A stretch of 64,000 bases of DNA from Prevotella sp. (GTDB taxonomy: Bacteria > Bacteroidota > Bacteroidia > Bacteroidales > Bacteroidaceae). Positions 3,898-43,171 of this stretch are shown here, one piece after another (within the stretch, counting starts at the first letter, position 1; each line of letters begins with the position of its first letter). The stretch covers positions 1 to 64,000 of the forward strand of contig SUYI01000009.1 of assembly GCA_015060485.1 (NCBI GenBank), given 5' to 3'. The translations under genes and the position numbers were made by a program. The notes below the pieces were generated by a model. That model was given only the letters and a program-made list of their open reading frames with translations. It did no database searches and was not told the origin of the DNA.

Positions 3898-3906
3898 ATC
3901 AAAGTT

Positions 3907-23853: not shown

Positions 23854-23903
23854 TCAGGTTGTGGTTAAGTAATCCCCACATTACTGATACACCCTATTAA
23901 CAC

Positions 23904-23980: not shown

Positions 23981-24088
23981 TTAGAACGGACCATAGCCCA
24001 TACAGCTCGTCGTTCCCAGTGCGGTCAGTGCCGCCGTCAGCGCCGCTATCGCTATGCGAATCACGACTTCCCAAAAATTCTTCTTCAT
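23981..24088 (-). CDS. Smalltalk-like small protein, 35 aa
   Basis: Minus strand MKKNFWEVVIRIAIAALTAALTALGTTSCMGYGPF*; downstream of an HU-like gene as is typical of this family; absent from the ORF track. Confidence 0.8.
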   Translation of the reverse strand: MKKNFWEVVIRIAIAALTAALTALGTTSCMGYGPF

Positions 24089-24281: not shown

Positions 24282-24320
24282 TAAAAAGGTTTGCGCCCTT
24301 TCAGGCGCTAACCTTTTTAA
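24282..24320 (-). terminator. Terminator overlapping the HU-like gene stop
   Basis: ttaaaaaggtttgcgcc ctttca ggcgctaacctttttaa, 17-bp arms with one mismatch. Confidence 0.8.
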
Positions 24321-25488: not shown

Positions 25489-25698
25489 ATGAACGAAAAA
25501 TCATCAAAACCGAAGACCTTCGGTCGCAGTGAACTCGCACTGCAGTACTTTCCTGAGCTTACGGCGATGTCCGCCTGGCGCAAGTTCAAGGAGTGGCTCG
25601 AATTCAATCCGCGCCTCCGTCCGCTGTCGTCGCTCTCGCGTCGCACATTCACCCCTGCCGAGGTAGACCTGATCTACGCAGAGCTTGGCGAGCCGTAG
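25489..25698 (+). CDS. DUF4248-like small protein
   Basis: 69 aa, FGRSELALQYFPELTAMSAWRKFKEWLEFNPRL. Confidence 0.75.
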   Translation: MNEKSSKPKTFGRSELALQYFPELTAMSAWRKFKEWLEFNPRLRPLSSLSRRTFTPAEVDLIYAELGEP

Positions 25699-25906: not shown

Positions 25907-26140
25907 CGAAATATTCATTTATTCAAATATTCAATTATGACAGGAAGGTTTCTGCGTTTACCGAAGCAGAAACCATTATTATATTATATATTATATATAA
26001 TATATAATATAATAAAATATTACACAAATTATAATTCTTTCTATTCCATCCCTAACACACCCTCCCACGGAATTCAAATCACCGAATTTTGTAAAAACCT
26101 TCCTGTCATAATTGAATAAATGAATATTTGAATATTTCGA
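25907..26140. repeat. Inverted repeat pair (~45-bp arms containing AATTATGACAGGAAGGTTT) around an AT palindrome
   Basis: Arm 25907-25951 and reverse-complement arm 26095-26140; third copy at 42460-42505. Confidence 0.9.
25976..26015. repeat. Perfect 40-bp palindrome made only of A and T
   Basis: TTATTATATTATATATTATA followed by its exact reverse complement. Confidence 0.95.
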
Positions 26141-26278
26141 GTAAGCGAGAGCAGAGTGAAGTTCGTTTCGACTCTGCCAAGCGGGAGAAATATCGACGAA
26201 GTCAATAAATGAAGATAAAGCCATGCTCGCATGAGCTTTATTGAATGCAAAAAATATCGACAATGTCAATATTTGAAT
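26095..26278 (-). repeat. Left outward-facing terminal-repeat-like sequence
   Basis: Reverse complement aligns with 42394-42505 apart from a ~70-85 bp insertion and scattered mismatches. Confidence 0.7.
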
Positions 26279-26326
26279 AAATCCCCCAATTTTCTTTGGT
26301 ACTTTAGAAATATTTTACTATCTTTG

Positions 26327-26415
26327 CAACCAAGAAGGTTGCGAGAACGGGCTGCGCCTCGGCAATTCAAGCGAGCTTGATTGCACTCGGTTTGCACCGT
26401 CCGTGCCAACAAATA
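26327..26415 (+). ncRNA. Putative structured leader RNA, copy 2
   Basis: Follows TATCTTTG (26319-26326); gcaacc/ggttgc hairpin, TCAAGC-GA-GCTTGA hairpin, conserved gcctcggcaa and ctcggtttgcac. Confidence 0.5.
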
Positions 26416-26428
26416 TGCTACTGCTGAA

Positions 26429-26632
26429 ATGACGAACGAACGAAATGCAACACATAACTCGCTAAATATGAGGGGTTTAATAAAACTGCCCCCCCCAATA
26501 TTTTGTAATCTCACAGGTATAACCACATCCCACGGCATTACTGCCAATGCCCCCCTGCTGCATCAGGCTTCAGCCTCTTGTGGCAGGGTTTTGACGTTCC
26601 TATGCCTGACTGTGATTACGCTTAACATCTGA
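26429..26632 (+). CDS. Uncharacterised small protein, 67 aa
   Basis: MTNERNATHNSLNMRGLIKLPPPIFCNLTG... downstream of leader copy 2; coding status uncertain. Confidence 0.3.
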   Translation: MTNERNATHNSLNMRGLIKLPPPIFCNLTGITTSHGITANAPLLHQASASCGRVLTFLCLTVITLNI

Positions 26633-26813
26633 AACAGCTATGATAGAACATTGGTACGAATATCTCCCTGCAGCATTGATGTTAGGAGGATACCTGAAAT
26701 CTTTTTCGCGATAATCTGATTCTTTTGTATTATTCCCCCTTGGTAAAGACAACACCTGCGCGAAAAAACAAAAGATAATTCTACTTTCTTTTGGTTTTTT
26801 GCTCACTTATTCG

Positions 26814-27133
26814 TATCTTTGCATCGTTCATACCCGCGCTTTTGGGCGAATGGGTGGGACGACGACATATTGGAAAGCGTCATTGATGCTTTGTTTTTGG
26901 CTATCTGAAACTTCCACAAATGATAGACCAGTCAAGAGCAACAGCGGAGGTGAATGCTACGGGTGTAGTATATACTCCCGGAGTGTGCCGAGGGCTAACG
27001 ATGCCCTCACGCACACTTTTCGGGGTGCATTATATACTGACCGGCGTGGGTATTCAAACTCTGTTCGTTCACTGGTCGGGCTGTGGAAGGCCTCAGATAG
27101 CGGGACGGGCAGGTGAGGATACCCCGCTTTTTG
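26814..27133 (+). ncRNA. Putative ~300-nt structured RNA with promoter and terminator
   Basis: TATCTTTG at 26814-26821; hairpin AGTGTGC-c-GAGGGC/GCCCTC-ac-GCACACT (26982-27017); terminal AGCGGG...CCCGCT + T-run (27099-27132). Confidence 0.5.
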
Positions 27134-27202
27134 TATGCCGCCATCACTAACTAAGAAACCTCTGACATTTGGGTATCAGTCAGAACAACACGTTGCTGAC
27201 CG

Positions 27203-28129
27203 ATGCCTCAAAACACGGTTGTAAAGAAAAAGCCCGTTGTCGCAAAGCCGTTTATTAAATGGGCTGGCGGCAAAGGGAACCTACTACAAAAGCTGGAAGC
27301 GCTGCTACCTGCTGATTTCGACGATCTTAAGAATGTAACTTACATAGAGCCTTTTGTTGGTGGTGGTGCCATGCTATTCCACATGCTACATTACCACAAA
27401 TGCATCAAGCGTGCAGTCATTAACGACATTAATCCTGATCTCATTCGCTGTTACCAACTTATAGCTGATACACCAGAAATTCTGATAGACCGCCTTAGTG
27501 TCATTGAAAACAACTACTATAGCGTGGAATTCCCAGCAAGGAAGGAGCAATATTATGCCTATCGCGATCAATATAACAGCGAAGGAATTCATCCCGACGA
27601 ACGAGCTGCGTTGTTTATCTTTCTGAATCGCACATGCTTTAATGGCCTTTATAGAGTGAATGCCGCGGGCAAATTCAATGTTCCATACGGGCGGTATAAG
27701 AAACCTCTCATTTGTAATAAAGAGCTGATAATGGAAGACCACCAAGTGCTTAACTCAGTAGAACTGATTATCCGTCAGCCCGGAGATTATAAACTTGTCA
27801 GGCAGAATCTCAGCAAGAATCATGTGAACTTCGTATATTTCGATCCTCCTTATCGGCCTATTAGTGTTACGTCTTCATTTAAGGAATACTCAAATAGTCC
27901 TTTTGGTGATAAACAGCAAGAAGAGTTGAAACTCTTCTGCGACAAGTTGTCTAATCAGAATTGCCTTGTCATGCAGAGTAATTCTGACAGTAAAACCGAG
28001 AATGGAGAATCCTATTTTGAGGAATTATATGTGGGATACGATATCCAGAGGGTCTTAGCAGCTAGATTTATCAATGCAGATCCCGAAAAACGTGTGAAGC
28101 TAACAGAAGTAGTCATTAGAAATTATTGA
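27203..28129 (+). CDS. D12-class (Dam/DpnM-like) adenine-N6 DNA methyltransferase
   Basis: KPFIKWAGGKGNLLQKLE, YIEPFVGGGAMLFHML, VYFDPPYRPIS. Confidence 0.92.
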   Translation: MPQNTVVKKKPVVAKPFIKWAGGKGNLLQKLEALLPADFDDLKNVTYIEPFVGGGAMLFHMLHYHKCIKRAVINDINPDLIRCYQLIADTPEILIDRLSVIENNYYSVEFPARKEQYYAYRDQYNSEGIHPDERAALFIFLNRTCFNGLYRVNAAGKFNVPYGRYKKPLICNKELIMEDHQVLNSVELIIRQPGDYKLVRQNLSKNHVNFVYFDPPYRPISVTSSFKEYSNSPFGDKQQEELKLFCDKLSNQNCLVMQSNSDSKTENGESYFEELYVGYDIQRVLAARFINADPEKRVKLTEVVIRNY

Positions 28130-28132
28130 GCT

Positions 28133-28579
28133 ATGGGAAAGATATTGATACAAGCCAACAATCTTGACACAGTCATAGATACCTTTATGTATATCTATAT
28201 GCATCCTGGCTGCACAAAACAAGAACTGGCAGACTATTGCGGTTTTACGCTCCGGCAGGCAGATTACTACACAAATGCCTGCAAATATCTAGACCTGATA
28301 AATGATGATTGGAGTAAAACTTCTCTTGCAATTGATATTTTTACGAACAATCCAGCAGAAATTTCAGAACGAGTCTACGCAAGAATCATCTCTGATGAGC
28401 TGATGGGGCAGATCTTTGCACGAATCTATGTGCTCCCGAATGAAGACCCATCGACATTCGCTATGGAGCTAACAAAAGAATACTATCCGGGTTATAGCGA
28501 AGCAGTTTATGAGCGGAGGTCGGATAATATCGTGAAATGGTGTAAGAGGATTATTGAGAAAATGAATACAAAATATTAA
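28133..28579 (+). CDS. HTH-like protein of unknown function in methylase operon
   Basis: TKQELADYCGFTLRQADYYTNACKYLDLI looks like winged HTH; 3-bp gap to upstream gene. Confidence 0.6.
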   Translation: MGKILIQANNLDTVIDTFMYIYMHPGCTKQELADYCGFTLRQADYYTNACKYLDLINDDWSKTSLAIDIFTNNPAEISERVYARIISDELMGQIFARIYVLPNEDPSTFAMELTKEYYPGYSEAVYERRSDNIVKWCKRIIEKMNTKY

Positions 28580-28583
28580 AGAT

Positions 28584-30878
28584 ATGGCACATCTAACGGA
28601 ACTACAAGTAGAAAATGTCAAATCGCACATGATGCGCGACGAAGATGCATTAAGAATTAAGTTCAAAGCAAAGAATACCGAATTTGACACTATCAGCAGA
28701 CCTCACAACGAAGTTGAGGCCTATGAGAAAATGGGGTATTCTGTGGTTCGGTCTTCTGCACGCAAAACAACATTATCTCGAAAAAAGGATCATGGCGTGC
28801 AGTTTGAAGATGACGTGTGGTGTATGTTCTATAAACTTGGATTTCGAATTTTGAATGGAGACGAGAAACTTGTTGTTCAATGGGGCCCCAATAAGGAAGA
28901 TACCCAACAACTTGATGTGGTAGCTGTAGGCGATGATGCCATATTCGTTGTTGAATGTAAGGCAGCTCTAACTTCTGTTGGTCACAGTTTCAAGACTGAA
29001 CTAAACAAAATGGAGCAATACATGACTGGTATTACTGAATCTTTACGGCAGATATACGGTAACAAACGAGTAAAATTTATTTTTGCCTCTCGAAACTACC
29101 GTATTAATGACGAAGATATTGCTCGTATGGGAAATGCTGGAATATTCCATTTGAATGACAACTCCTATAACTATATCAACAACCTCATCAAGTCATACAA
29201 AGAATCCGTCATCTACCAATTCTATGGGTTGATGTTTAAGGATGAACTTATAAATGACGATCTGATTAAAATACCTGTTTTGAAGGGCAAGATGGGTGAA
29301 CGTAACTATTATATTTTCTCTATCGAGCCGAGCACGTTGCTAAAGATAGGATTCGTCCTTCATAGAACCCGTGTCAATGATTCTATGGCACCAACGTATC
29401 AACGTCTTCTTGTTCCATCAAGACTGAAAGGCATTACTAATTTTATTGACGGAGGAGGCTATTTCCCAAATTCCATCATCATCAACTTCAGTGCAGCAAA
29501 TGATGAGCTGAAAGTGAAGTTTACACCCATCAGGGCAGAAAAGGACTCCCAATCAGAGTTCGGGTTCCTGCGCATCCCTAATGCTTATGGCATTGCTTAC
29601 ATCATCGACGGACAACACCGCGTGTATGGTTATGCCCAGTCACAACATAAGGAAGACAGCACTATCCCTGTTGTTGCTTTCGAGGGTATGGAATCGGAGG
29701 AACAGCTTAAGATATTCATGGAGATTAACGAGAATCAAAAGGCCGTCAGCCCAAGCCTGCGACTAGACTTGGAGGAAGACCTTTACTGGAAATCAGCTCG
29801 TCTTGATTCTCGCATGAAAGCGCTGCGTTCGTCATGTATCAAAGCTCTTGCAGCCAATTCAAACTATGTGCTTTACAACAAAATCTCTGTTGGCGAAGAT
29901 CCGTCTCTTTTGGCCTTCAAGCCTTTTGATACCGCATTGGGACGCTCAGGATTGATACCCAAAGCCTCTTCAACACAATGGACTGGTGATACTGATGTCT
30001 GCATATACAACACCAACGAGACGGACATTGATAAAGCCATGAAGGATAGCCGTACCAGGATAACAAAGTTCATTGATGATGGCTATGCCATTGCGGACTC
30101 AATCATGACAGAAGAGGTCAAACAAGACTACCTGTTCTCTAACCGAGCCACGTTTGCATTCATTGCTCTCTTGGGGTCTTTGCATACATATCTTATCAAG
30201 ATAAATACAATTAATCCTCAATCATCAATTCCTGATAGAATTGCAGCTGTTGATCCGTACATTCGTCATTTGGCAAACAGTCTCAACAACCTCTCAGACG
30301 AAGACAACCGAATTATCAAAGGTGTGTTGGGACAGGGTGCCGATACATTCTGGCTTCGCTCTTTCCAGAATATCATCAACAAACAATTCCCTGAATATGC
30401 GCCTGAAGAACTGGTAGAATGGAAAGAGACACAAGATCAATCGTTACAGCAGGAAGGCGCAGAGCGCAAGGCAGATATCCGTCGCCAACTCAGAACACTC
30501 CTGTTTGCTCGACTTGAAAAGGTGTATGGTGCAAAATGGTTGAATAATGTGGCCATTCTTAAGAACGCCATTGAAGGTAGAATCATCAAAGAGTATGGTG
30601 ACAACGATGATTTCGATCTGTCTGAATACGATTGGAGAGATTACTTGGAAGTCTCGGAATATCGTGACGTGATTGATAAGAACTTCAGCTATCAGGAGTT
30701 CGAGGAAGTCTTTGCTATTAACATTGGACTTGCTTTTAAATCAAAGAAAGACAAACTCAATTGGATGACGATGATTAGTGAACCCAAAGGTAAAAAGACT
30801 TCTGCTTTGACACGTTCAGATTTAAATCGTCTGGAATTGATCAATACACATTTGGCCAACTTCATTGATGTTGAATGA
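28584..30878 (+). CDS. DGQHR-domain (DndB-like) protein with N-terminal restriction-endonuclease-like domain
   Basis: QLDVVAVGDDAIFVVECKA (PD-(D/E)xK-like) and AYIIDGQHRVYGY. Confidence 0.75.
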   Translation: MAHLTELQVENVKSHMMRDEDALRIKFKAKNTEFDTISRPHNEVEAYEKMGYSVVRSSARKTTLSRKKDHGVQFEDDVWCMFYKLGFRILNGDEKLVVQWGPNKEDTQQLDVVAVGDDAIFVVECKAALTSVGHSFKTELNKMEQYMTGITESLRQIYGNKRVKFIFASRNYRINDEDIARMGNAGIFHLNDNSYNYINNLIKSYKESVIYQFYGLMFKDELINDDLIKIPVLKGKMGERNYYIFSIEPSTLLKIGFVLHRTRVNDSMAPTYQRLLVPSRLKGITNFIDGGGYFPNSIIINFSAANDELKVKFTPIRAEKDSQSEFGFLRIPNAYGIAYIIDGQHRVYGYAQSQHKEDSTIPVVAFEGMESEEQLKIFMEINENQKAVSPSLRLDLEEDLYWKSARLDSRMKALRSSCIKALAANSNYVLYNKISVGEDPSLLAFKPFDTALGRSGLIPKASSTQWTGDTDVCIYNTNETDIDKAMKDSRTRITKFIDDGYAIADSIMTEEVKQDYLFSNRATFAFIALLGSLHTYLIKINTINPQSSIPDRIAAVDPYIRHLANSLNNLSDEDNRIIKGVLGQGADTFWLRSFQNIINKQFPEYAPEELVEWKETQDQSLQQEGAERKADIRRQLRTLLFARLEKVYGAKWLNNVAILKNAIEGRIIKEYGDNDDFDLSEYDWRDYLEVSEYRDVIDKNFSYQEFEEVFAINIGLAFKSKKDKLNWMTMISEPKGKKTSALTRSDLNRLELINTHLANFIDVE

Positions 30879-32293
30879 CATACAAGGAGATATCAAGAAC
30901 GGATAATTCGCTGCGCCCCTATCAGCAACAGGCAAAGGAGGACATCTTCTCTGCCTGGGACGAATGTGATGGCGTGATGTTCCAGATGCCAACTGGTACT
31001 GGAAAGACCCGCCTGTTTTCATCCATCATCAGCGATATCAAGACTTGGAGCGTTCAGAACGGTGAGGACGTAAAAATCCTTATCATAGCACACCGCATAG
31101 AACTGATAGACCAAATCAGTGAGAATTTGGAACGTTATAAAGTTTCACATGCTATTATTGCCGGTGGAAAACCTCGCGATTTAAGATATCCCGTCCAAGT
31201 GGCTTCTGTCCAAACCATAACTCACCGTAACAATCTTGATGTGGCAAGTGACTTGAATGTCAATTTCATTATTGTGGATGAGGCCCATCATTGTGTTGCT
31301 AATTCTTATAAGAAGCTTTGGGACATGTATCCTAATGCAAAAAAACTGGGAGTGACTGCAACACCTTGGCGAATGAACAACGGAGGCTTTGAAAGCGTTT
31401 TCGATAAGATTATCATTTCGCAGTCTATCCAAAGTTTTATTGATGCAGGTTGGCTTGCTCCTTACGACTATTATTCTATCAGCTATAATAGCGAGATTCA
31501 GAAGGAGATTGAATCAATTACCGAGTTTGATGTGGAAGGTGATTATAAGATTTCTGCTTTGGAGAAAAAGATAGACACCTCACGTATTCGAGCTCAATTA
31601 CTGGATAGCTATTTGAAATTTGCCAAAGGCAAGAAGGGGATTATCTATTCTGTTAGCAGAAAACATAGTGACCACATCTGCCAAGAATATCGTGAAGCGG
31701 GTATAAACATCGTTCGTATAGATAGCAAAACACCTAAAGACGAACGAAAACTATATGTGGACCGTTTCAGAAAAGGCCTGATTGATATTATTGTAAACGT
31801 AGATATATTCTCAGAAGGTTTTGATTGCCCTGATATAGAGTTTATCCAATTGGCAAGGCCAACAAGATCGTTAGTGAAGTATCTGCAGCAAGTTGGACGT
31901 GGATTGCGCCCAACAGCAGGTAAAAGCATTTGCCTAATCTTGGATAATGTTGGCCTGCATTTTCAGTTTGGACTGCCTAATTCAGACCGAAATTGGGAGG
32001 AATGCTTTGTGGGGAGTCCACATATTCCAACTCGTAGGAATAGCTCTGGAGGCTCAATGCTTACGGAACATAAAGAGCGAAACTTCTCAGAAGGCACAGA
32101 CGAGATGCAATTGATTGTTGCATCACAAAAGAAAGCTGATGAAGCAACAAAGCAGTGGTCTGATAAAGACTTAGAATTATTAAAGACGTTATTTGAAGAA
32201 AAACAGTGTCCAATAGAAGTTCTTGTTGCTGTTTTCAAACGAAGTGAGGATGAGATAAGGAATAAATTATCTGAATTAGCACCTAAAGAATAA
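30875..32293 (+). CDS. SF2 DEAD/DEAH helicase
   Basis: LRPYQQQAKEDI, MPTGTGKTRL, VDEAHH, VGRGLRPT; 4-bp overlap with upstream gene. Confidence 0.9.
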   Translation: MTYKEISRTDNSLRPYQQQAKEDIFSAWDECDGVMFQMPTGTGKTRLFSSIISDIKTWSVQNGEDVKILIIAHRIELIDQISENLERYKVSHAIIAGGKPRDLRYPVQVASVQTITHRNNLDVASDLNVNFIIVDEAHHCVANSYKKLWDMYPNAKKLGVTATPWRMNNGGFESVFDKIIISQSIQSFIDAGWLAPYDYYSISYNSEIQKEIESITEFDVEGDYKISALEKKIDTSRIRAQLLDSYLKFAKGKKGIIYSVSRKHSDHICQEYREAGINIVRIDSKTPKDERKLYVDRFRKGLIDIIVNVDIFSEGFDCPDIEFIQLARPTRSLVKYLQQVGRGLRPTAGKSICLILDNVGLHFQFGLPNSDRNWEECFVGSPHIPTRRNSSGGSMLTEHKERNFSEGTDEMQLIVASQKKADEATKQWSDKDLELLKTLFEEKQCPIEVLVAVFKRSEDEIRNKLSELAPKE

Positions 32294-33537
32294 TGGCTAC
32301 AATTACTCCCTTCTACCGCTCTGGCAGCAAAGACTTCACCCTCGTAAATGGTGATTGCGTGTCGGTACTTGAATCGTTTGATTTCAAGTTCGACATGATA
32401 TTTGCTGACCCTCCTTACTTCCTGAGTAATGGCGGCATCAGTGTCAGTAGCGGTAAGGTGGTTTGTGTGGATAAAGGAGGATGGGACAAGGCTCCTTCAG
32501 CGGAGTATATTGATGAGTTTAATCGTCGGTGGATCACGGCTTGCAAGGATAAACTGAAAGACAATGGAACCATTTGGATTAGTGGTACCCACCACAATAT
32601 TTTCTCTGTGGCAGACCAGCTGTCAGAATTGGGATTCAAAATTCTGAATGTGGTAACGTGGAATAAGACTGATCCGCCTGACAATGTATCTCATCGTGTG
32701 TTCAAACACTCTGCGGAGTATATCATCTGGGCCAAGAAATCGAAACGGGCTCAGCACCGCTATAATTACGAACTGATGCGCCAACTGAACGACGGCAAGC
32801 AAATGACGGATGTGTGGCGAATGCCGGCAGTGGCGAAATGGGAGAAGTCATGTGGTAAACATCCTACGCAGAAGCCATTAAGTTTGTTGTCGCGCATGAT
32901 CATGGCTTCTACAAAGGAAGGTGACTGGGTGCTCGATCCCTTTAATGGTAGCGGTACCACTGGCATCGCCGCCTCTCTGCTTGGGAGAAAGTATCTGGGT
33001 ATAGATATGGATTCTGGGTATCTTGAACTGGCCTCAAAACGTAGAGAGGAACTGGAAAATGAGGAGGTTAGGCAGGCTTATAAGGAGATGGTGCTGGTGG
33101 ATTTCAATGGAGCCATCCAAGCAGAGCAACCGCATCATGTACTCGTGGGAAGGATTGGTTCTGAAGAGCAATGGGAATGGTTTGAGAAGTCTCACACCTA
33201 TATCTTACCAATCAGCAAAATTCTGTTTATGCCAAAATTGCTTGGTGCAGAATATGTGTTGGCTTTTCTTGGGAAAAATCCGAAGCGGGCCCAGCTGTGC
33301 AGAATATCTTCGGTAAAGCCCCAAGTAAAGACCCGAGAACAGATAGAAGAGATGGCTTCGCATACTTCTTACTATAAGCCAACACGTGACAAAACCTACT
33401 GGCTTATCCATCTGGAAAAGCCATTGGATGAGATAAAAGGAAAGGTGTTCAACAAGTCGTTGTTGCTTAACTTACAAGAGCAGCGTGGAGCCTATTGGAT
33501 TAAGAAATACGAAGAGGCCATCAAGGCGTTTGAGTGA
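32293..33537 (+). CDS. DNA methyltransferase (beta-class N6-adenine/N4-cytosine type, DpnA-like) with C-terminal extension
   Basis: FADPPYFLSNGGISVSSGKVVCVDKGGWD, DPFNGSGTTGIAA; TAATG stop/start overlap. Confidence 0.88.
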   Translation: MATITPFYRSGSKDFTLVNGDCVSVLESFDFKFDMIFADPPYFLSNGGISVSSGKVVCVDKGGWDKAPSAEYIDEFNRRWITACKDKLKDNGTIWISGTHHNIFSVADQLSELGFKILNVVTWNKTDPPDNVSHRVFKHSAEYIIWAKKSKRAQHRYNYELMRQLNDGKQMTDVWRMPAVAKWEKSCGKHPTQKPLSLLSRMIMASTKEGDWVLDPFNGSGTTGIAASLLGRKYLGIDMDSGYLELASKRREELENEEVRQAYKEMVLVDFNGAIQAEQPHHVLVGRIGSEEQWEWFEKSHTYILPISKILFMPKLLGAEYVLAFLGKNPKRAQLCRISSVKPQVKTREQIEEMASHTSYYKPTRDKTYWLIHLEKPLDEIKGKVFNKSLLLNLQEQRGAYWIKKYEEAIKAFE

Positions 33538-34606
33538 CACCTTGTAGTATGTCACTGATTTTGCTCCAATAGTAGTACGCCTCCGGATTACCGCGACGTA
33601 TTTTGGTTAGTTCTTTGCTAACGGCAGCACTAATTTTCATATTCATTGCATCATTAGCATTGCCTGAATATTTCATGATTTCATGCTGGCCATATTCAAT
33701 AGCTGTAGCCAAATAGGCCGCCTTTGCTGCATCGGTTATGGCCTGATCAAGCGTATACCTGCCAACATAGATATGGCTCTTCAACTTATCAACTCCCTCG
33801 GCAAGCAGTTCAAAATCATTGTTGGGGTCAACCTTTCCGCGTGTACCAAGTGCCATTGCTGAATTCCGGATGTCTTCATAGACAATGCTGAGGTCGTCAC
33901 CCTTTCCACGATATGATGACAGTTCAACTACTGCTATCGACTTGAATGTTTCCGCCGTGGTGGCAATGTCTTCTACGGCATCAAACAACCTTCCAATATC
34001 GTGTAGCTGCTTAGCGACGTTGATAGTGGAGTTGTGTGTGCCTTTATAATAGGGAACACCGCATGTATTGGGTGCAAAGGCTGTCAGTTTGTCGCCAAGA
34101 ATATCAGCAACTGACGGTACTCGAATGATGGTTTCGCTATTATCAGTCTTAATGAATGGATGCAAGAGAGGCTTGTCTTCTATCTGATGATAGTGGTTGT
34201 CCTCGAAAAGCACATCGAGTAATACAGAGTCCTCTATCTGGTCAGAATACACCACCTCGAAGAATGATTTGTAATGGCCCTTGGGTACATTGCCGTTCCT
34301 GTTCTCACGTCTGATAGTCTTACAATCAGTAAAGCCATATTTCTCGCAGTTCTGGAGATATTTTTCAATGTCGGTTCCTGGTGGGCATAGAACGTCTATG
34401 TCTATAGAGAGCCTGCGGGCCTTTTCACCGAGTATCAGAAGAAGACTTGTTCCGCCCTTGAAAGTCAGTGGACAGCCTTCCTTGACAAGCATCTCCAATA
34501 GTGAGAAAGCACGAATAACCTTCTCAACAAGTTCGGGGTGTCTGAATTTATGTGATGAACATACTTTGTCAATCCATTCCTTTTCAAAACATTCTTCCTG
34601 TATCAT
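33521..34606 (-). CDS. AbiEii-family nucleotidyltransferase toxin
   Basis: LTFKGGTSLLLILGEKARRLSIDIDV (GGTSL...SxDID). Confidence 0.85.
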   Translation of the reverse strand: MIQEECFEKEWIDKVCSSHKFRHPELVEKVIRAFSLLEMLVKEGCPLTFKGGTSLLLILGEKARRLSIDIDVLCPPGTDIEKYLQNCEKYGFTDCKTIRRENRNGNVPKGHYKSFFEVVYSDQIEDSVLLDVLFEDNHYHQIEDKPLLHPFIKTDNSETIIRVPSVADILGDKLTAFAPNTCGVPYYKGTHNSTINVAKQLHDIGRLFDAVEDIATTAETFKSIAVVELSSYRGKGDDLSIVYEDIRNSAMALGTRGKVDPNNDFELLAEGVDKLKSHIYVGRYTLDQAITDAAKAAYLATAIEYGQHEIMKYSGNANDAMNMKISAAVSKELTKIRRGNPEAYYYWSKISDILQGVTQTP

Positions 34607-35313
34607 TGTATTTCCTTCAAGTCGTTAAGTATTGATTCCTTCTCATTTCGACGGTCTGCATATCTTAGCAGACGGGTCTGGTTAACGTTATAATGGGTGA
34701 CGGCGGTTCTAAGCATCTCTAAATTCTCATAGCCATGCAGATAGTAGAAGTCGGGATCAACCCTTGTATCTACCAATAATTTCTCTATGGTAGGGACGGG
34801 CACTTTTCCGTCAAACATTAGTGGAGATTCTGTAACGAGTGGTTTTACAATGATGTTCTCGCTGCTAAAATCAATGTAGGTCGATGCTATTTTCTTAGTA
34901 GGAGAGAGGAAGAGACGTCCCTTATGTTTTGGTAGCAACACGTTGAAAACACTCTCCGTAACCTCACGGTTTGTCTCGATATAGACAGTGTTGTTCGGCG
35001 TGAGGTCATGCAGTAAGGGAGTAATGACACCGCCACCATAAACGCAAAAGTCTGCTAGTGGAAACTGCTTTGACAAAGACTTGTATAGCGAACGGGCTTT
35101 AGTATTGGCTTTCACCTGAAATGAATTAGAGATGTGAGCAGTATATATACCACGTCCAATCCTCTTCAGCTTTCCTTGTCTGCAAAGATTGCTCAAATGC
35201 CAGCTGAGCGTATTCCTTGCAATTCCAGCAGTAACCTCTATCGGCATGTCGTCAATTGCAAACTGCTGAAGGCCATTGGCATAGTTCATGATGTTGTTAC
35301 TTACTCCTACCAT
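34603..35313 (-). CDS. AbiEi-like antitoxin/regulator
   Basis: N-terminal wHTH (ARNTLSWHLSNLCRQGKLKRIGRGIYT), 4-bp overlap with the AbiEii gene. Confidence 0.78.
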   Translation of the reverse strand: MVGVSNNIMNYANGLQQFAIDDMPIEVTAGIARNTLSWHLSNLCRQGKLKRIGRGIYTAHISNSFQVKANTKARSLYKSLSKQFPLADFCVYGGGVITPLLHDLTPNNTVYIETNREVTESVFNVLLPKHKGRLFLSPTKKIASTYIDFSSENIIVKPLVTESPLMFDGKVPVPTIEKLLVDTRVDPDFYYLHGYENLEMLRTAVTHYNVNQTRLLRYADRRNEKESILNDLKEIQ

Positions 35314-35491
35314 TATTTATCGTGAATAAAAATCGCTGCAAAGATAGCTAAAATTCGGCAAATATCCAAATTTTTGCCGTTTTTTAGTTTTATTTTAATG
35401 ATTATTTGCAGATGTGATTTCAGAACAAATAAGCTGTTTAAAGATCCTAGAGACATCCGAAAGGTTAAAAAATCCCAAAAGTGGATCCACC

Positions 35492-35527
35492 CGGATCGGC
35501 CGGTCTTGTTCAGATCGGCTTTTTTTG
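35492..35527 (+). terminator. Terminator-like hairpin (with G-U pairs) followed by T7
   Basis: GGCCGGTC ttgttca GATCGGCT TTTTTT. Confidence 0.55.
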
Positions 35528-35539
35528 TACCTTTGCACC

Positions 35540-36118
35540 ATGATGTATGAACAAACATTTCTGACACATAAAGAGGCTGTGAAAAAGGCGCTTGAGGAAC
35601 TTGGCGGCAGAGCAAGGTTAAGGGATATATATCCTCGGGTTATTCCTTATATTAAGTATAAACCAGGAAGTGATATTAGGGCAACGTTACGTCGTTTACT
35701 CCAAACGACTCCAGAATTATTCCGTCGTACTGAAGGAAGAAAAGGCTGGTGGGAACTTGTTTCGTATCAGGAAGAATTGGCAGAGAGGGATAGAAAAATA
35801 GCAGAACTAACTCAATCTCAGATAACCAAGTCAGTAATCATTCAGGCCTTTAATGATTGTAACAACTTAGTAGAAAGAACTTTCGCCATGCAGACAATGG
35901 AGAGGCTTTTCGGAGGAATTGATGTTTGGAAGATAGCTTGCAAAGAGATGAAAAAGGCGGGTTATTTTAATGACCCTCAACCAGTGATAATATTTGATAG
36001 GCCTCAGATAGATCTCATTATAGACAAGCATATTGAACATGCCGATGTCGCCGTCGGAGTTGCAGAGAAAGGATCAACAGTATTTCATCACAAAATAGAG
36101 AAAGATGGACGAGAATAA
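35540..36118 (+). CDS. Winged-helix protein with C-terminal VAVGVAEKGSTV motif
   Basis: TACCTTTG promoter just upstream; HARE-HTH-like N-term; C-term HADVAVGVAEKGSTVFHHKIEKD. Confidence 0.65.
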   Translation: MMYEQTFLTHKEAVKKALEELGGRARLRDIYPRVIPYIKYKPGSDIRATLRRLLQTTPELFRRTEGRKGWWELVSYQEELAERDRKIAELTQSQITKSVIIQAFNDCNNLVERTFAMQTMERLFGGIDVWKIACKEMKKAGYFNDPQPVIIFDRPQIDLIIDKHIEHADVAVGVAEKGSTVFHHKIEKDGRE

Positions 36119-36617
36119 GAAAGCAGAATATACGAAAGGAATGTTTGCAGGTGCAACATTTAATAACTCAGTGGTGGTTGGAATCGCTGAGAGTGGTTCA
36201 ACGGTTAGCTACGAAGCACCTAATAAGAAAATGAAGGATGATGGTGATGACAACTTGCAGAAAAAAGGCAAGAAGGCCATCATGGAATATGTAGGACGGC
36301 TTCGGCCTTTAGTGAAAGAACAGTATCAGGAGCGATACGACCAGATATGGGAGGGTATCCTGGAAATCAGCCAAGTGAAAGCTGTGATATATAATAAAGG
36401 TAAGCAGCAGGACACAACCTTTAACCGCAATCTTCTGGCTCAGCTTATCCATCAGGTGGAAATCATCTATCTTTCTTCAGCCAATAATGCACTGATGACT
36501 ACTTATTTGGAACCCGAAAGAGGGGCAGATCATCCGGTAAGGCAAAAGCTTGGAGAAGTTCCAGATAAAGACATAAAGAATGCAGTAGAGGATTACATGA
36601 AAAAGCATTTAGAATAA
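36105..36617 (+). CDS. Hypothetical protein with N-terminal VVVGIAESGSTV motif
   Basis: Overlaps upstream ORF by 14 bp; NNSVVVGIAESGSTVSYEAP. Confidence 0.65.
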   Translation: MDENKKAEYTKGMFAGATFNNSVVVGIAESGSTVSYEAPNKKMKDDGDDNLQKKGKKAIMEYVGRLRPLVKEQYQERYDQIWEGILEISQVKAVIYNKGKQQDTTFNRNLLAQLIHQVEIIYLSSANNALMTTYLEPERGADHPVRQKLGEVPDKDIKNAVEDYMKKHLE

Positions 36618-36692
36618 TCATTTTTTGAAGGAAAAAAGAAAGTTGGGTCACCCGAAAAGTGGCCTAACTTCTTGTATATCAGCGAGTGAAGG

Positions 36693-36729
36693 AAAGAAAG
36701 AAAGTTGCGCAACTTTCTTTCTTTTTTTC
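36693..36729 (+). terminator. Intrinsic terminator built on a 32-bp perfect palindrome
   Basis: AAAGAAAGAAAGTTGC|GCAACTTTCTTTCTTT followed by T-run. Confidence 0.85.
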
Positions 36730-36745
36730 ACCCATTTATTTTTCA

Positions 36746-36900
36746 GACCTTTGCATCGCAATCCAATCCCGGAGGGGTGAGGAAATCCGAAACCCGATGG
36801 TGGGTGATTGCGGAGGTATTTGAGACTTCGTCTCGAAAACCTTTGGCGCTCGGAAGAGCTCAAACGAGTTTGGTTCTTCGCTCGCTGATGCGGTCTTTGA
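36746..36900 (+). ncRNA. Putative structured leader, divergent copy 3
   Basis: GACCTTTG -7; cgcaatc/gattgcg stem; gagacttcgtctc hairpin; gaagagctcAAACGAGTTTggttcttc GA-loop hairpin with ctcgg. Confidence 0.4.
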
Positions 36901-37005
36901 CATATTGTTACAACGGAATTGATAATCTGTTTTTCTACGCACATCTTTTTACTTACGTACACATACACGCATGTATGCGTACATTTATCAAAATTTGAAA
37001 GGAAT

Positions 37006-37395
37006 ATGAAAACAGAACAACAAGATAAGGATTTGATGCGTCGTGCTGTGCGCCACCTGCTGGTGACTGACGACGACGTGATGAATGAGGCGGAGCGCAT
37101 AGTGGGGCATACCCTGCAGCGTGAAAACCAAGGTGACAACGGATGCCTGACGGTGACGGAGATAGCCGGGGAACTGGGTATGGAAGCCAGGGACCTGAAC
37201 TCGTTTCTGCGCGACATGGGCGTCCAGAAATGGAAGCAAGGTCAGTATCGGCTGACACCCCAATACGAGGGGCTGGGGCTGACACACGACAGGCTGTTCA
37301 TCTACTATTCGAAGGACGGGAAGAAGAAACGTCAGACCTATCTCGTCTGGACTCCCAAAGGTCTGGAATTTATAAGGAAGATGATAAAAGGATAA
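37006..37395 (+). CDS. Phage antirepressor KilAC-like protein
   Basis: LTVTEIAGELGMEARDLNSFLRDMGVQKWKQGQYRLTPQYEGLGL...WTPKGLEFI. Confidence 0.65.
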   Translation: MKTEQQDKDLMRRAVRHLLVTDDDVMNEAERIVGHTLQRENQGDNGCLTVTEIAGELGMEARDLNSFLRDMGVQKWKQGQYRLTPQYEGLGLTHDRLFIYYSKDGKKKRQTYLVWTPKGLEFIRKMIKG

Positions 37396-37424
37396 AGGTA
37401 AAAACGTAAAAAAATAAAAGTATT

Positions 37425-38051
37425 ATGACAAAAGCATTTTTGTATGATTCCCTTTGTGGAATGGTTTATCGTGCCATGTTTGCCGGACTTGACGAGTACG
37501 GGAAGGCACAGTGGATTAACATTACTCCGGGTGAGGAACCCAAGACGCTGGAAGACTATGTGAGGGACGAAGACCTGGAAGATATGCGGTTCTTTGTGCT
37601 GTCGCTGGATGGTGAGATGGCCCAGACATTGCAGATTGCAAAGGTTTTGGGAAAAGTGATGGAATTCCCCTTCGAAGGAATTGGTGCCGACCTGAAACTA
37701 TCGGTCTGTCACATGAAGGAATTGGGCGTGAAATGGGACCGCAAACCTCTTGAACTCGATGTCAGGGTGTTTGAAAACAGCGTGACCAGCAAACGTAAGG
37801 GTAAGTACTCGTTCCGGGTGGAGGATTACAATGAGAGTTGCTCTGTGTTGGCCGACGTGGACGGCTATGACGATTTGGACGAGCTGTTCAGAGATCTACA
37901 CACCTATTTCTTCGTACTTGAGAATCTGGCGGAAATATCAGTTATCCGTAAAGGCCTCATCATCAGCGACAAGCTGAAGAAGGATGTGAAGAAGACGGAA
38001 CTGAGCAACTTTGACCATGTTGTTAAGGATGGGATTGTATTTGGTGTTTAA
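37425..38051 (+). CDS. Hypothetical protein
   Basis: 208-aa ORF co-directional with neighbours. Confidence 0.6.
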   Translation: MTKAFLYDSLCGMVYRAMFAGLDEYGKAQWINITPGEEPKTLEDYVRDEDLEDMRFFVLSLDGEMAQTLQIAKVLGKVMEFPFEGIGADLKLSVCHMKELGVKWDRKPLELDVRVFENSVTSKRKGKYSFRVEDYNESCSVLADVDGYDDLDELFRDLHTYFFVLENLAEISVIRKGLIISDKLKKDVKKTELSNFDHVVKDGIVFGV

Positions 38052-38102
38052 AGGATAAGGAAAAAAGGACCACAGATTTAACGGATTAAACGGATTATTT
38101 TT

Positions 38103-38396
38103 ATGGAAAAAACTGTGAGAATTTTGGAGCAGTCGGCACTTTCGACCAAAAAGTATACCGACAAGAAGACTGGTGAGGAGAAGGTGATCAACGCCGTGAC
38201 GTTTAAGCTGTCGGACGGCATCGACACTTTCCTGGGTGAGGTGACAGGCGAACGCGCCGTGAACTGCCCGCAGTACGACAAGAACTACTTCTACCGCGTG
38301 CAGTGCTCGATGGTGGTCAGGGAATGGGATAGCTCTCAGACCGGCGAACACATGAAGGCTACGACGATTTACCTGGACAAAATCGCAATGAAGTAG
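38103..38396 (+). CDS. Hypothetical small protein
   Basis: 97-aa ORF MEKTVRILEQSALSTKKYTDKKTGEEKV, in replication-gene context. Confidence 0.6.
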   Translation: MEKTVRILEQSALSTKKYTDKKTGEEKVINAVTFKLSDGIDTFLGEVTGERAVNCPQYDKNYFYRVQCSMVVREWDSSQTGEHMKATTIYLDKIAMK

Positions 38397-38400
38397 GATT

Positions 38401-39336
38401 ATGAGTACGCTGAATTTTGCCGAGAAGCCAGTACAGGTGCTGACTCTCGAGGAACTGGAAAGAAGCTATCACGAGAACTTGCCGACGGGTCAGCCCGTCG
38501 GCGGTATCTACCACTTCGAACTGATAGGGCAGGTGCTGGAGGCTTTTGAACGCCGCAGTCTGAAGCCGGTGGTGCAGGAAATCTTTGCTGCCGCCAACCG
38601 CGACTCGAAACGTCCGGGTGTGACGCTGCTGCCACAGCTGGAGGAGAAGTATGGTGAGCGTGCCGTCGAGGCGCATCTGCTGCGAAGGGTGTATGCCAAC
38701 ATCGAGATCCGAAGCGACGAAACGGATGACTTGGTGACGTGCCTGGCGGTGGCGTACCATCAGAAGGGCATCCAACTGGGTATCGGACCAATGGTGAAGG
38801 TGTGCCACAACCAGACTATTCTGGGGGCGCAGGATGTGGTGAGCAACTATGCATGCTGGGGAGCCTACCCCCAGCCCCTCCCAAAGGGAAGGGGAGATAG
38901 GATGACAGTAGAAGATGTGCTGGCGAGGGCGCAGCAGTGGGCTGATGACTACGAGCCATTCCAGAAGATTCGCCGTGAGCGCATGGGTGCCCTGAAGTCG
39001 GCACAGATGAATCGCGACGATATGCTGAGGCTGATAGGCATCTTGGTGGAGAAGCGCATCCTGCACGATACGCAGAACGACGTGTTGCGCGTGGCGCAGA
39101 CTTATCCGCTGAACTCGAGCCAGATCAACGAAACGGCAGAGAACTTATTAGCTTTGTTTACTAATAGGGGACAGTCCCCCAGTACTTCGCACAGCGGGGA
39201 CAGTCCCCAGCCAGTCAGTTATTGGGATGCTTACCAGCAGCTGAACACGGTGCTGAAACCTGCAAGGATGGATATTCCACAGGTGCTGCCGCAGAGCCTG
39301 GCGCTGTTTGAGTGTCTGACGGAAATGATTAAATAA
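38401..39336 (+). CDS. Phage/plasmid-like protein with DUF932/DUF3871-like features
   Basis: VGGIYHFELIGQVLEAFE..., HNQTILGAQDVVSNY; contains two in-frame repeat insertions. Confidence 0.55.
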   Translation: MSTLNFAEKPVQVLTLEELERSYHENLPTGQPVGGIYHFELIGQVLEAFERRSLKPVVQEIFAAANRDSKRPGVTLLPQLEEKYGERAVEAHLLRRVYANIEIRSDETDDLVTCLAVAYHQKGIQLGIGPMVKVCHNQTILGAQDVVSNYACWGAYPQPLPKGRGDRMTVEDVLARAQQWADDYEPFQKIRRERMGALKSAQMNRDDMLRLIGILVEKRILHDTQNDVLRVAQTYPLNSSQINETAENLLALFTNRGQSPSTSHSGDSPQPVSYWDAYQQLNTVLKPARMDIPQVLPQSLALFECLTEMIK

Positions 39337-39353
39337 GGAATACGAACATAAGG

Positions 39354-39908
39354 ATGACGCTGGAATTTTTAGAACTTTTAGAAGAAATGAAAAAGACAGA
39401 TGAAAAAAAAGTTCAGGAGCAGAATACTGAGGCACAGTCCTCAGTCGCTCCCCGCAGGAAACTGCAGAAGTCGTTTAAGTCGAACACCCGCATCTATGAT
39501 GACGGTTCGATTGAGGTGGATCCACAGGCTCAGGGCGAGCCCAGTCAGAAGGATGTGAAGAAGGTGGGTAAGTCGAAACGGTATGTGACTAACGGCAAGA
39601 ACCCGCTGACTTGCATTGAGATGAAGTGTTCTGAGGATGTGCAGGACAAGGCTGCCTTCTTCCACAAGGAGTTGGCAAAGCTGACTAAGGACATCCAGAT
39701 TGAGGAGCCGCAGATGCCCGACGGGGAATATCTGCTGAACGACGAGAATGTGAAAGTGCATTTATCGGCAAAAGACAGAAAAGTTACTGTCTGGCTAAAA
39801 TTTGCATCAGAAGGATTTATGGACATAAGGAAAGAGTTTTACCAGTTAAGCAGTAAAGTTGAGAAATGTTTTGCTTTCAACGAAGCTTTGGTTTGCCAAC
39901 TGAAGTAG
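39354..39908 (+). CDS. Hypothetical protein
   Basis: 184-aa ORF in the same operon; overlaps the primase-helicase start. Confidence 0.55.
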   Translation: MTLEFLELLEEMKKTDEKKVQEQNTEAQSSVAPRRKLQKSFKSNTRIYDDGSIEVDPQAQGEPSQKDVKKVGKSKRYVTNGKNPLTCIEMKCSEDVQDKAAFFHKELAKLTKDIQIEEPQMPDGEYLLNDENVKVHLSAKDRKVTVWLKFASEGFMDIRKEFYQLSSKVEKCFAFNEALVCQLK

Positions 39909-42373
39909 TATCTCTGGAACAGTTTCGGGCGCTGATTACGGCGCCTGAAACTATCAGAAAAGTAAAAGAGGCCCGCGAAGCACTGGATTGTGGTGACAGG
40001 AAGACCTATGATGCCAAGAAGAAGGGTTTGCCTTTTGTTATTTTCATCGCTACCTACGACGAGAGCGAAAAGGAGTTTGAGGATAAGGATACTGGCGAGA
40101 AGACGAAGAAACTGGGGCGTTGGCGTAACCAGAAGTACTGCAGGCTGAATGGTTTGTGCGTGATAGACTTTGACCATGTGGACAGCCTCACCCCCGACCC
40201 CTCTCCAAAGGGCGAGGGGAGTAAAAAGACCGTGAGGGAGATATGGGATGAAGCCTATGCACGATTGTCTGACGAAGACAGGGCCCGTGTGCTTTTTGTG
40301 TTCGTAACGCCAAGTGGTCATGGATTGAAGGTTGTGTTTATCGCTGATGCAGCTGTGGGCAACCTGATAGACAACCAGAAGGCGTTTTCTCTGAAGCTGG
40401 GTTTGAACCCGGACGAAGCCTGTAAGGATGCATCTAGAGGTGCGTTCCTGACTACGAGTGATGACATTATTTTTATTGATGAAGAAAGACTGATCAATTA
40501 TGAAAGTGAAGATTTTGGTAAGAAGTATGATGCTGAATATCATGCTGGTCATAGTGCTCCTACTCAGACTGCTGCTGTGGCCGGTCAGAAAGCTGGACAA
40601 GGGACTGAGGCTGTCGGGACAGTGGATGCTCAGGAAGTGGTGACTTACAACGATGTGCCCATCGCGAAGATTATCGAGGCGTGGCTGGAGGGTGTCAATC
40701 TGGACAAGAACCGCCATAACACGCTGACGGAGTTGGCAAGCCACCTGCGCTATCTGATTGGTAGGAATGCGAAGAAGATTACCGAGGTGGTGATGACGCT
40801 GCAGTGGGTTCAGGACCTTGCGACAGAAGGTGAGGATGTGGCAGGTACGGTCAGTTCCGTCATGGGTTGGCGATATACGGAAAAGAAGCCGCCAAAGCTT
40901 CGTGAGGCATTGGAAAAGGCTGGGGCTTTGACTATTACTAATACGGGACAGTCCCCCAGTGCTGCAAGCAGCACAGATGGGACAGTCCCGGGGGCTGGCG
41001 CCGCGGATGTTTACGACGTGCTGCCGCTGGACAAGTGGGCTGAGGAACTGCAGGAGATGGCGGAGTATTATCCCTGTCTGAAGCAGCTGTTTCTGAATGT
41101 GCATCCGCACAAGCTGCCTGCGGTGTGGTTCTCAAGTGCGGCATTGTTCGGTACGCTGATGACCAGGGCGTGGTATTATTTCTGGTACGAGCCGGAGATT
41201 GTCAGAAGGCTGAACTACAGCATCTTCATCATCGGCGACCCGGGATCCGGCAAGAACATGGTGGAGAAGTTCTACAAGAAGATTGCCGACCCGATGATTC
41301 AGGCAGACCAGTGCCTGGTGGATGCCGTGAACCGCTACAAGGAAGGCCGCACGGAACGAACCACCTCGTCGAAGGCTCAGAAGGGTGACGCACTGAAACG
41401 CCCCGAGGTGGGCATCCGCGTGCACCCAGCCCGTACGGCAACGGGTGAGTTCATCCGGCACATGCGGGCTGCCGTGGAAACCGTTCAGGGAGAGCGTCTG
41501 AACCTGCACATGTTCTCGTTCGATGCCGAGCTGGACAATGTCACCAAGCAGAACAAGGGCGGCGACTGGAAGGACCGCGAAATACTGGAACTGAAAGCCT
41601 TCCACAACGAGCAGGATGGTCAGATGTATGCCAACCAAGAGTCGGTGACGGGCATGTTCAACATCTTCTGGAACTTCATCTACACCGGTACGCCGTATGC
41701 CCTGCACCGCAAGGTGAACCAGCGGAATTTCGGTACGGGTATGTCGACGCGACTGGCCGTAATACCGCTGCCTGACAAGGGTGTGGCAAAGCGCCGTCAG
41801 CAGGTAGACCCGTCAGCCAACGAGACGCTGCGCACGTGGGCTTACCGTCTGGATAAAGTCGAGGGCGAGCTGCCCATTGAGCCGCTGAATGACGAGACCT
41901 ACGACTGGCAGTCGGCACGTCTGGAAATCGCCGAGTTCAATGGCGACAAGGGTGACAAGATGCTGCTGAAGCGTATTCCTTACTACGGTATCGGCATCTC
42001 GCTGCCGTTCATCCTGATGCGTCATTGGGACGAGTGGCAGGAGTCGAAAACGCTGACGATGGACGATAGGGACAAGCGCCTCTGTCGCCTGGCGATGGAA
42101 ATCCAGTACAAATGCCAGCAGTTCTTCTTTGGCGAGATGGCGTACAACTACTTTGCCGACCAGAACAAGGAATTCGTGCAGCGCCGCCGCACCACCCGTT
42201 ACGACGAGTGTTTCCGCAAGTTACCCGACGAGTTCAAGACGCAGCAGTTTATGGAGGTTTTCGGTTGTTCGCAGCCTACGGCCTCTCGCAGCATCCTGCG
42301 TTTGCTGGAGGATGGCATTGTAGAGCGCGTACAGCATGGACTCTACCGAAAGGTATTGCAGGAACTGCCGTAA
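39866..42373 (+). CDS. VirE_N/BT4734-like primase-helicase
   Basis: N-term BT4734-like (FVFVTPSGHGLKVVFIADA), Walker A GDPGSGKN, HTH-like C-term. Confidence 0.75.
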   Translation: MFCFQRSFGLPTEVVSLEQFRALITAPETIRKVKEAREALDCGDRKTYDAKKKGLPFVIFIATYDESEKEFEDKDTGEKTKKLGRWRNQKYCRLNGLCVIDFDHVDSLTPDPSPKGEGSKKTVREIWDEAYARLSDEDRARVLFVFVTPSGHGLKVVFIADAAVGNLIDNQKAFSLKLGLNPDEACKDASRGAFLTTSDDIIFIDEERLINYESEDFGKKYDAEYHAGHSAPTQTAAVAGQKAGQGTEAVGTVDAQEVVTYNDVPIAKIIEAWLEGVNLDKNRHNTLTELASHLRYLIGRNAKKITEVVMTLQWVQDLATEGEDVAGTVSSVMGWRYTEKKPPKLREALEKAGALTITNTGQSPSAASSTDGTVPGAGAADVYDVLPLDKWAEELQEMAEYYPCLKQLFLNVHPHKLPAVWFSSAALFGTLMTRAWYYFWYEPEIVRRLNYSIFIIGDPGSGKNMVEKFYKKIADPMIQADQCLVDAVNRYKEGRTERTTSSKAQKGDALKRPEVGIRVHPARTATGEFIRHMRAAVETVQGERLNLHMFSFDAELDNVTKQNKGGDWKDREILELKAFHNEQDGQMYANQESVTGMFNIFWNFIYTGTPYALHRKVNQRNFGTGMSTRLAVIPLPDKGVAKRRQQVDPSANETLRTWAYRLDKVEGELPIEPLNDETYDWQSARLEIAEFNGDKGDKMLLKRIPYYGIGISLPFILMRHWDEWQESKTLTMDDRDKRLCRLAMEIQYKCQQFFFGEMAYNYFADQNKEFVQRRRTTRYDECFRKLPDEFKTQQFMEVFGCSQPTASRSILRLLEDGIVERVQHGLYRKVLQELP

Positions 42374-42393
42374 AGTATTGACTTCGTCGAAAT

Positions 42394-42505
42394 ATTCAAA
42401 TATTGACTTTGTCGATATTTGTCTGCATTCAACAATGCTCATGCCAGCATGGCATTGTATTCATTTATTCAAATATTCATTTATTCAATTATGACAGGAA
42501 GGTTT
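42394..42505 (+). repeat. Right outward-facing terminal-repeat-like sequence
   Basis: attcaaatattgactttgtcgatattt...aattatgacaggaaggttt; inverted relative to 26095-26278. Confidence 0.7.
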
Positions 42506-42551
42506 CAACGAGATTTAAGAATTTAACTATTTAACTATTTAAGCAAGAACT

Positions 42552-43034
42552 ATGAACGTAGAAATTAACAAGGATGTCAAACTCTCCCAGCATTTTACGC
42601 TGGGGGAGCTTTGCAAGACAAGCGTAAAGACGGCGGATGGAAATATTCCGAGTCATGTGCATATTGAGAACTTGAAGCGAGTCTGCGGATGGCTGGAGGG
42701 GTTGCGGTTGCGATGCAACCTAAATAAAAAAGAAAAAATAAAAAATAAAGATGAGCCGATAATTATTAACAGCGGGTATAGGAGTCCGGAGGTGAATGAG
42801 GCTGTGGGCGGAGCGACGGGGAGCAATCACCTGACGGGGTGTGCGGTGGATATACGGTGCAAGGGGATAGAGCAGGCGATACGCTATGCGTTTATACTCT
42901 TAGACATCAGCGAGGAGAGTGGAGAGCCCTTTGATGAGCTGCTGATAGAGAAAAGCTCCAAAAGCATTTGGGTGCACTTTGCCGTAAGGCCAGGCGAAAA
43001 TCGACACAAGGTCGATTTTCTAAATAAAAAATAA
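42552..43034 (+). CDS. Peptidase M15-like protein (D-Ala-D-Ala carboxypeptidase type)
   Basis: IIINSGYRSPEVNEAVGGATGSNHLTGCAVDIRCKG. Confidence 0.8.
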   Translation: MNVEINKDVKLSQHFTLGELCKTSVKTADGNIPSHVHIENLKRVCGWLEGLRLRCNLNKKEKIKNKDEPIIINSGYRSPEVNEAVGGATGSNHLTGCAVDIRCKGIEQAIRYAFILLDISEESGEPFDELLIEKSSKSIWVHFAVRPGENRHKVDFLNKK

Positions 43035-43090
43035 GAAATAAAAAATAAAGGCTGTTGCGTTGCAACCTAAATAAAAAATAAGAAATAAAA

Positions 43091-43133
43091 AATAATAAAA
43101 TTCGGGCTGATTTATGGTCAGTCCGATTTTTTT
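43091..43133 (+). terminator. Intrinsic terminator
   Basis: TCGGGCTGA tttatgg TCAGTCCGA TTTTTTT. Confidence 0.7.
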
Positions 43134-43171
43134 ATGTATTTTTGCAAGTTGAATAAAAACTGCATAAAGAA

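Follow-up and report, generated by a model that had tools for sequence, protein, structure and literature searches.

An integrase-free Prevotella island with origin-like repeats and a primase-helicase whose recognition helix covaries with them

Genes and repeats at the locus

The window, which here means the whole stretch of 64,000 nucleotides analysed from Prevotella sp. (contig SUYI01000009.1), contains an inserted element of ~19 kb (about 23.9-43.1 kb). Its left part carries genes for a 35-aa smalltalk protein (23981-24088, minus strand; NF033879, E 2e-10), an HU-HIG DNA-binding protein (24317-25168, minus strand; PF18291) and a DUF4248 small protein (25489-25698, plus strand; PF14053, E 1.5e-13). 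The cargo consists of a plus-strand series assigned by Pfam to a D12 methylase, DUF7226, a DGQHR/DndB-like protein, a ResIII helicase and an N6/N4 methylase (27203-33537), followed by minus-strand AbiEii and AbiEi/DUF6577 genes (33521-35313; Pfam) that recur at about 90% at the amino acid level in the related locus L036. The remaining genes, all on the plus strand, encode a KilAC/ANT antirepressor-like protein (36919-37395; PF03374, phrog_63), a 97-aa all-beta protein that is weakly SSB-like and kept in most related loci (38103-38396), a 184-aa protein conserved in related loci and named to no family (39354-39908), a primase-helicase (39866-42373; PF08800) and an M15 peptidase of the phage endolysin type (42552-43034; PF08291; phrog_894, E 3e-29). 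These Pfam and profile searches bear out the gene calls of the original prediction (methylases, DGQHR/DndB, helicase, AbiE, a KilAC-type phage gene, primase-helicase and M15 peptidase), and its statement that no integrase or transposase is visible holds for the window: Pfam identified no integrase among the main ORFs of the element, no transposase or recombinase of its own was found in it, and PHROGs identified no virion genes in the island.

Three copies of a repeat occur in the window, namely L1 (25906-25951, plus strand; repeat search, genome search and comparison with related loci), L2 (26095-26140, minus strand; repeat search and related loci) and R (about 42456-42505, plus strand; repeat search and related loci). 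L2 is inverted relative to L1 at a distance of 143 bp, and R is a direct repeat of L1, which aligns with 42466-42505. Between L1 and L2 lies a perfect (100%) 40-bp A+T palindrome (25976-26015). The inverted pair reported in the original prediction is real and in its place (26085-26134 against 42466-42515; 50 nt, 92% complementary); only two repeats had been counted, and L1 and the palindrome were overlooked. In addition, 26204-26279 pairs with 42393-42469 at 88%, and a hairpin is contained there. The core ATTATGACAGGAAGGTTT matches the window three times, against 0.05 matches expected from shuffles, and these are its only exact copies in the whole 3.94-Mb genome, where the remaining matches require 3 mismatches. 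R is located 3' of the primase-helicase stop codon and before the start of the next gene. An Rfam search at the repeats matched no structured RNA. An invertible promoter between L1 and L2 was considered and rejected, as there is no recombinase and the centre of the spacer is the palindrome.

Extent of the element, occupancy of the site and cargo

The left end of the element is placed near 23889-23892 because the similarity of several other HU copies to the window starts there, and the right end is bracketed at 43035-43160, giving approximate limits of 23889 and 43100. Genome G050 has just 112 bp between its versions of the two genes bordering the block in the window (22120-23853 and 43172-45409), and seven further relatives lack a block of such size at the corresponding place. 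The inserted block therefore reaches about 2 kb to the left and 0.6 kb to the right of the repeats, and the smalltalk, HU and DUF4248 genes on one side and the M15 gene on the other are part of it. In the close relative G327, whose flanks are 97-98% identical to the window, a contig (C35) opens with the start codon of HU, continues through DUF4248, L1, the palindrome and L2, and then jumps from window position 26235 to 42794, inside the M15 gene; the cargo, primase and R are absent and M15 is truncated. On this one draft assembly, the G327 locus appears to be a deletion derivative rather than a clean empty site. Related genomes thus lack the element at this site, and a close one has lost most of it.

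These comparisons bear on the view that the repeats mark the ends of a mobile element or serve as its recombination sites, with the block between them transposing, excising or inverting. The inverted pair L2/R and the direct pair L1/R do flank 16 kb; however, the insertion includes genes outside them, so they are not the boundaries of the island as originally proposed, and the boundaries of the inserted DNA lack the terminal inverted repeats of a transposon. The element has no recombinase, and no clean L1/R scar was found, the G327 deletion ending at 26235 and 42794 rather than at the repeats. Together with the covariation of repeat type and the DNA-reading helix of the primase described below, this makes recombination between the repeats highly improbable, and they are read here instead as iteron arrays of an origin-like structure, with the element extending past both sides. 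Integration at tRNA genes was likewise rejected, as no tRNA was found at the flanks of 26 of 27 loci, with element ends known approximately rather than to the base. Circular permutation, considered for copies with the endolysin beside smalltalk, was dropped because the neighbours there are ordinary chromosomal genes.

The original prediction had also suggested an insertion hotspot within an HU-DUF4248-primase-peptidase cassette, and a variable cargo slot of this kind fits the data: related loci hold different cargo in the same slot, and a close relative has neither cargo nor primase at this site. The 82 cargo ORFs of 21 other elements encode mostly type I, II and III restriction-modification, along with Fic and other domains, and integrase is not among their 25 commonest families. 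The five-gene methylase/DGQHR/helicase block (26810-33535) recurs as a unit in L188 (87% nucleotide identity) and L192 (83%), and cargo therefore moves between elements. Within it, a 764-aa DGQHR/DndB-like protein lies between the D12 methylase and the helicase (28584-30878), an unusual, mobile, restriction-like operon. The slot after R is filled by two unrelated phage endolysin families, the phrog_894 M15 type and the phrog_873 type (window, L054, L085 and L095). Locus L054 also contains two tandem smalltalk-HU pairs with identical smalltalk proteins (3480-6454) and, past the endolysin, a second Dam/N4-methylase block, an arrangement of stacked islands.

Related loci and covariation of iterons with the primase

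A search of named genomes with the primase returned 79 loci, almost all in rumen Prevotella or relatives; cultured carriers of such loci include P. communis E15-14 and X. ruminicola D31d. Of 150 genomes of the genus, 43 had the primase, with no more than 6 copies in any genome scored, and among 296 genomes of the order it was confined to the same genus. None was found in plasmid records, while phage records gave one weak match (21%) and IMG/VR one contig. Because highly similar copies of smalltalk-HU are numerous, draft assemblies break there and the island counts are underestimates; contigs ending at the smalltalk-HU or DUF4248 segment are seen in the genome of the window (G000; C51 and C45) and in G327 (C32, C60, C66, C75, C21 and C35).

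About 30 related loci share the layout of the window, with three 7-8-bp iterons, an AT palindrome and inverted iterons. Directly after the primase stop codon, most loci have some three 7-8-bp units in an array that ends in GACA or GACT and often AGGTTTT, and where the upstream part is present the same array occurs twice more, inverted around a 24-60-bp AT palindrome just downstream of HU. The iteron unit is private to the locus type (TTATTCAC, TTACTCAC, TTACCCAC, TTTCCCAC and TTTTGCAC, as well as GGTTACA, CGTGACA, ATAGTACC, GTAGGAAA, TTGCAAAA and others), and the palindrome is kept while the iteron sequence changes. Hairpin-like sequences are also found upstream of the R array in L051, L080, L098 and L100. 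The origin-like array of a locus matched its own R (at least 14 of 16 positions) in 22 of the 29 loci having both, compared to 16% of non-own pairs. In L042, L070 and L191 the upstream iterons are of a different type from the R of their own primase, which may reflect recombinants, tandem islands or misassemblies, L188, L202 and L205 have no recognisable R, and L199 is a weak case; the three mismatches and three missing arrays count against a replicon.

The relationship between iteron type and primase was examined by scanning mutual information per alignment column across 65 primases, with no region chosen beforehand. The signal peaked at residues 802-833, with a mean excess of 0.36 bits per column in 801-836, and no other 50-residue block exceeded 0.11 (the numbering in these scans, in the helix-iteron code and in the Mantel tests runs one ahead of the annotated protein). 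Mantel correlations were 0.05 for residues 1-250, 0.05 for 251-500 and 0.07 for 501-770, rising to 0.20 for 771-797, 0.52 for the recognition helix (798-818) and 0.23 for 819-836, against permutation maxima of 0.15-0.19; the limits of the last three segments were set after the unbiased scan had been seen, and 17 of the R arrays were delimited by hand. Pfam places an AbiEi-type winged helix at residues 779-828 of the primase (PF13338), and AlphaFold2 also predicts a winged helix with confidence, residues 803-815 forming the recognition helix. Nearest-neighbour prediction of iteron type succeeded for 45.6 of 63 from the helix and for 9-14.5 of 52-64 from residues 1-770. Residue 803 is Q with A at unit position 3 (46 of 46) and D, K or N with T (17 of 17), although the loci are related and such counts are not independent events. 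The helix motifs SQPTAS, SQQAAS and SQSAAQ accompany ATATTC/TTATTC, TTACTC and TTACCC, respectively, and SKTAAS, SNATAA and NDSATS accompany TTTCCC, TTTCTC and TTTTGC. As R adjoins the C-terminal codons of the primase, physical linkage could account for some of the covariation, and prediction of iteron type from the 18 residues that follow the helix is indeed fairly good (41 of 63); however, linkage cannot easily be the whole cause, because the upstream array 3-15 kb away carries the same type and the Mantel signal falls on either side of the helix.

Origin-like loci also occur alone. The genome of the window contains smalltalk-HU-origin or HU-origin arrangements without a primase in the stretch examined on contigs C28, C71, C76 and, as a relic, C62 (L271, L270, L269 and L111), each with its own iterons (for example TGTACCAT on C28 and GTCAACAA on the relic). 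A second primase island, on contig C4, has an R array that matches the iterons of C28, which suggests that the primase may act in trans. G327 has, at the position corresponding to C28, an origin-like structure with other iterons (CGTCACGC), the same place thus holding a different code, and several sites are occupied in both genomes.

Proposed replicon and comparison with known systems

The layout, its conservation, the locus-private iterons and the covariation of helix and iteron are read directly from the sequences. The most probable interpretation, with a likelihood of roughly three in four, is that the island encodes a replicon, with the three repeats as its iteron arrays, rather than transposon ends, and the primase-helicase as its initiator; the suggestion of a replicative, integrase-free element in the original prediction fits the data. 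L1-palindrome-L2 is taken as the putative origin and the primase as the putative initiator because iteron type tracks only the C-terminal recognition helix of the primase at each locus. The primase-helicase would bind L1 and L2 through its winged helix, open the intervening palindrome, which could melt or extrude, and prime synthesis, possibly helped by the conserved 97-aa beta protein. R, where the initiator gene ends, would offer a third site for binding and may serve regulation, handcuffing or the coupling of origin and gene. The island would thus reside in the chromosome without an integrase, in the order smalltalk, HU, DUF4248, origin, defence cargo, replication genes, R and endolysin. 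We infer that the site may fire, possibly under the control of the KilAC and HU proteins, and that the defence cargo may be amplified or mobilised as a result.

It is also conceivable that the arrays are operators, the winged helix of the primase regulating cargo transcription at L1/L2 and endolysin transcription at R, with no start of replication. The position of R, after the primase stop codon but ahead of the following gene (an endolysin in the cases checked), and the primase-free loci of the same genome agree with this; however, an operator does not need a long AT palindrome, which is conserved as the iterons change, and the supposed regulator is fused to an intact primase-helicase. Regulation by itself is therefore considered rather unlikely. 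A still less likely explanation is a decayed prophage whose replication module persists only as the passive flank of a defence hotspot. The endolysin, KilAC and HU genes without virion genes, and the relic copies (C62 and G327), are what such a remnant would leave. However, the initiator and iterons change in step and the catalytic residues are invariant, which points to selection on function. The archaeo-eukaryotic primase (AEP) and Walker A residues are invariant in 31 relatives, including D101, D103, S150 and G153 in the contexts VIDFDH and PSGHGLK, so that the AEP motifs hhhDhD and sxH are present; this invariance argues for an active enzyme. A PDB sequence search with the primase profile found nothing, and a whole-protein fold search gave nothing below E 0.001, fold searches being weak here. 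The N-terminus matches PF08800, as in the BT4734-like family, which is not affiliated to any AEP clade (PMC5862659), but the island primase differs in its fusion to a helicase and a locus-specific winged helix and, in the genomes sampled, in its restriction to one genus.

Among known systems, phage-inducible chromosomal islands (PICIs; SaPI and Gram-negative) provide the closest parallel in layout, with two iteron sets flanking an AT-rich core, a primase-helicase initiator and phage-interference or accessory cargo (PMC6092414), and the island resembles them in all of these within a chromosomal setting. The possibility that it is a true PICI-like satellite of Bacteroidales packaged by a helper phage, which is compatible with the replicon, is favoured by the PICI-type origin, primase module, antirepressor-like gene and defence cargo, and by the patchy distribution in the genus. 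Against this, no integrase, att site or flanking tRNA was found, an endolysin is present, the primase is nearly absent from plasmid, phage and IMG/VR records, and several sites are occupied in both G000 and G327; such a satellite is a minority possibility. In PICIs the origin lies directly 3' of the initiator gene, whereas that of the island would lie about 13 kb upstream, with the single array R alone in the 3' position; PICIs lack phage structural and lytic genes, whereas the island lacks virion genes but carries the endolysin-type gene after R; and its size of about 19 kb is a further difference. As it departs from PICIs in three respects (integrase, origin position and absence of lytic genes), the island is not classified as one.

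The PLE satellite of Vibrio cholerae similarly links an island-encoded initiator and an iteron origin to phage defence, but its initiator is a RepA_N protein without primase or helicase activity (PMC7145576) and it encodes an integrase (PMC6092414), in contrast to the primase-helicase and the lack of an integrase here. The smalltalk, HU-HIG, DUF4248 and endolysin gene sets of Bacteroidales comprise the same families as the island, but in other genera a search of the 1.5 kb around DUF4248 revealed no palindrome accompanied by iterons. No published description of such an island was found in the literature searched, with subscription journals and preprints largely outside it. A more speculative and rather doubtful extension is that the integrase-free replicons in Prevotella chromosomes form a family whose members each have a private origin code. 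Each initiator would then fire the island that encodes it, together with solo origins of the same code elsewhere in the chromosome, raising the dosage of restriction and abortive-infection cargo under phage attack, and the code would diverge so that neighbouring islands do not cross-fire. Under the replicon interpretation, what was a defence island flanked by repeats becomes a testable unit, in which the DNA address of an initiator is predicted by its recognition helix. The origin-like repeats next to smalltalk-HU-DUF4248 genes in Prevotella would thereby acquire a function, and the helix-iteron table could serve as a ready specificity code for Prevotella plasmid tools. The same interpretation would extend PICI-type origins to a phylum, and to a setting without integrase, for which the literature searched showed none.
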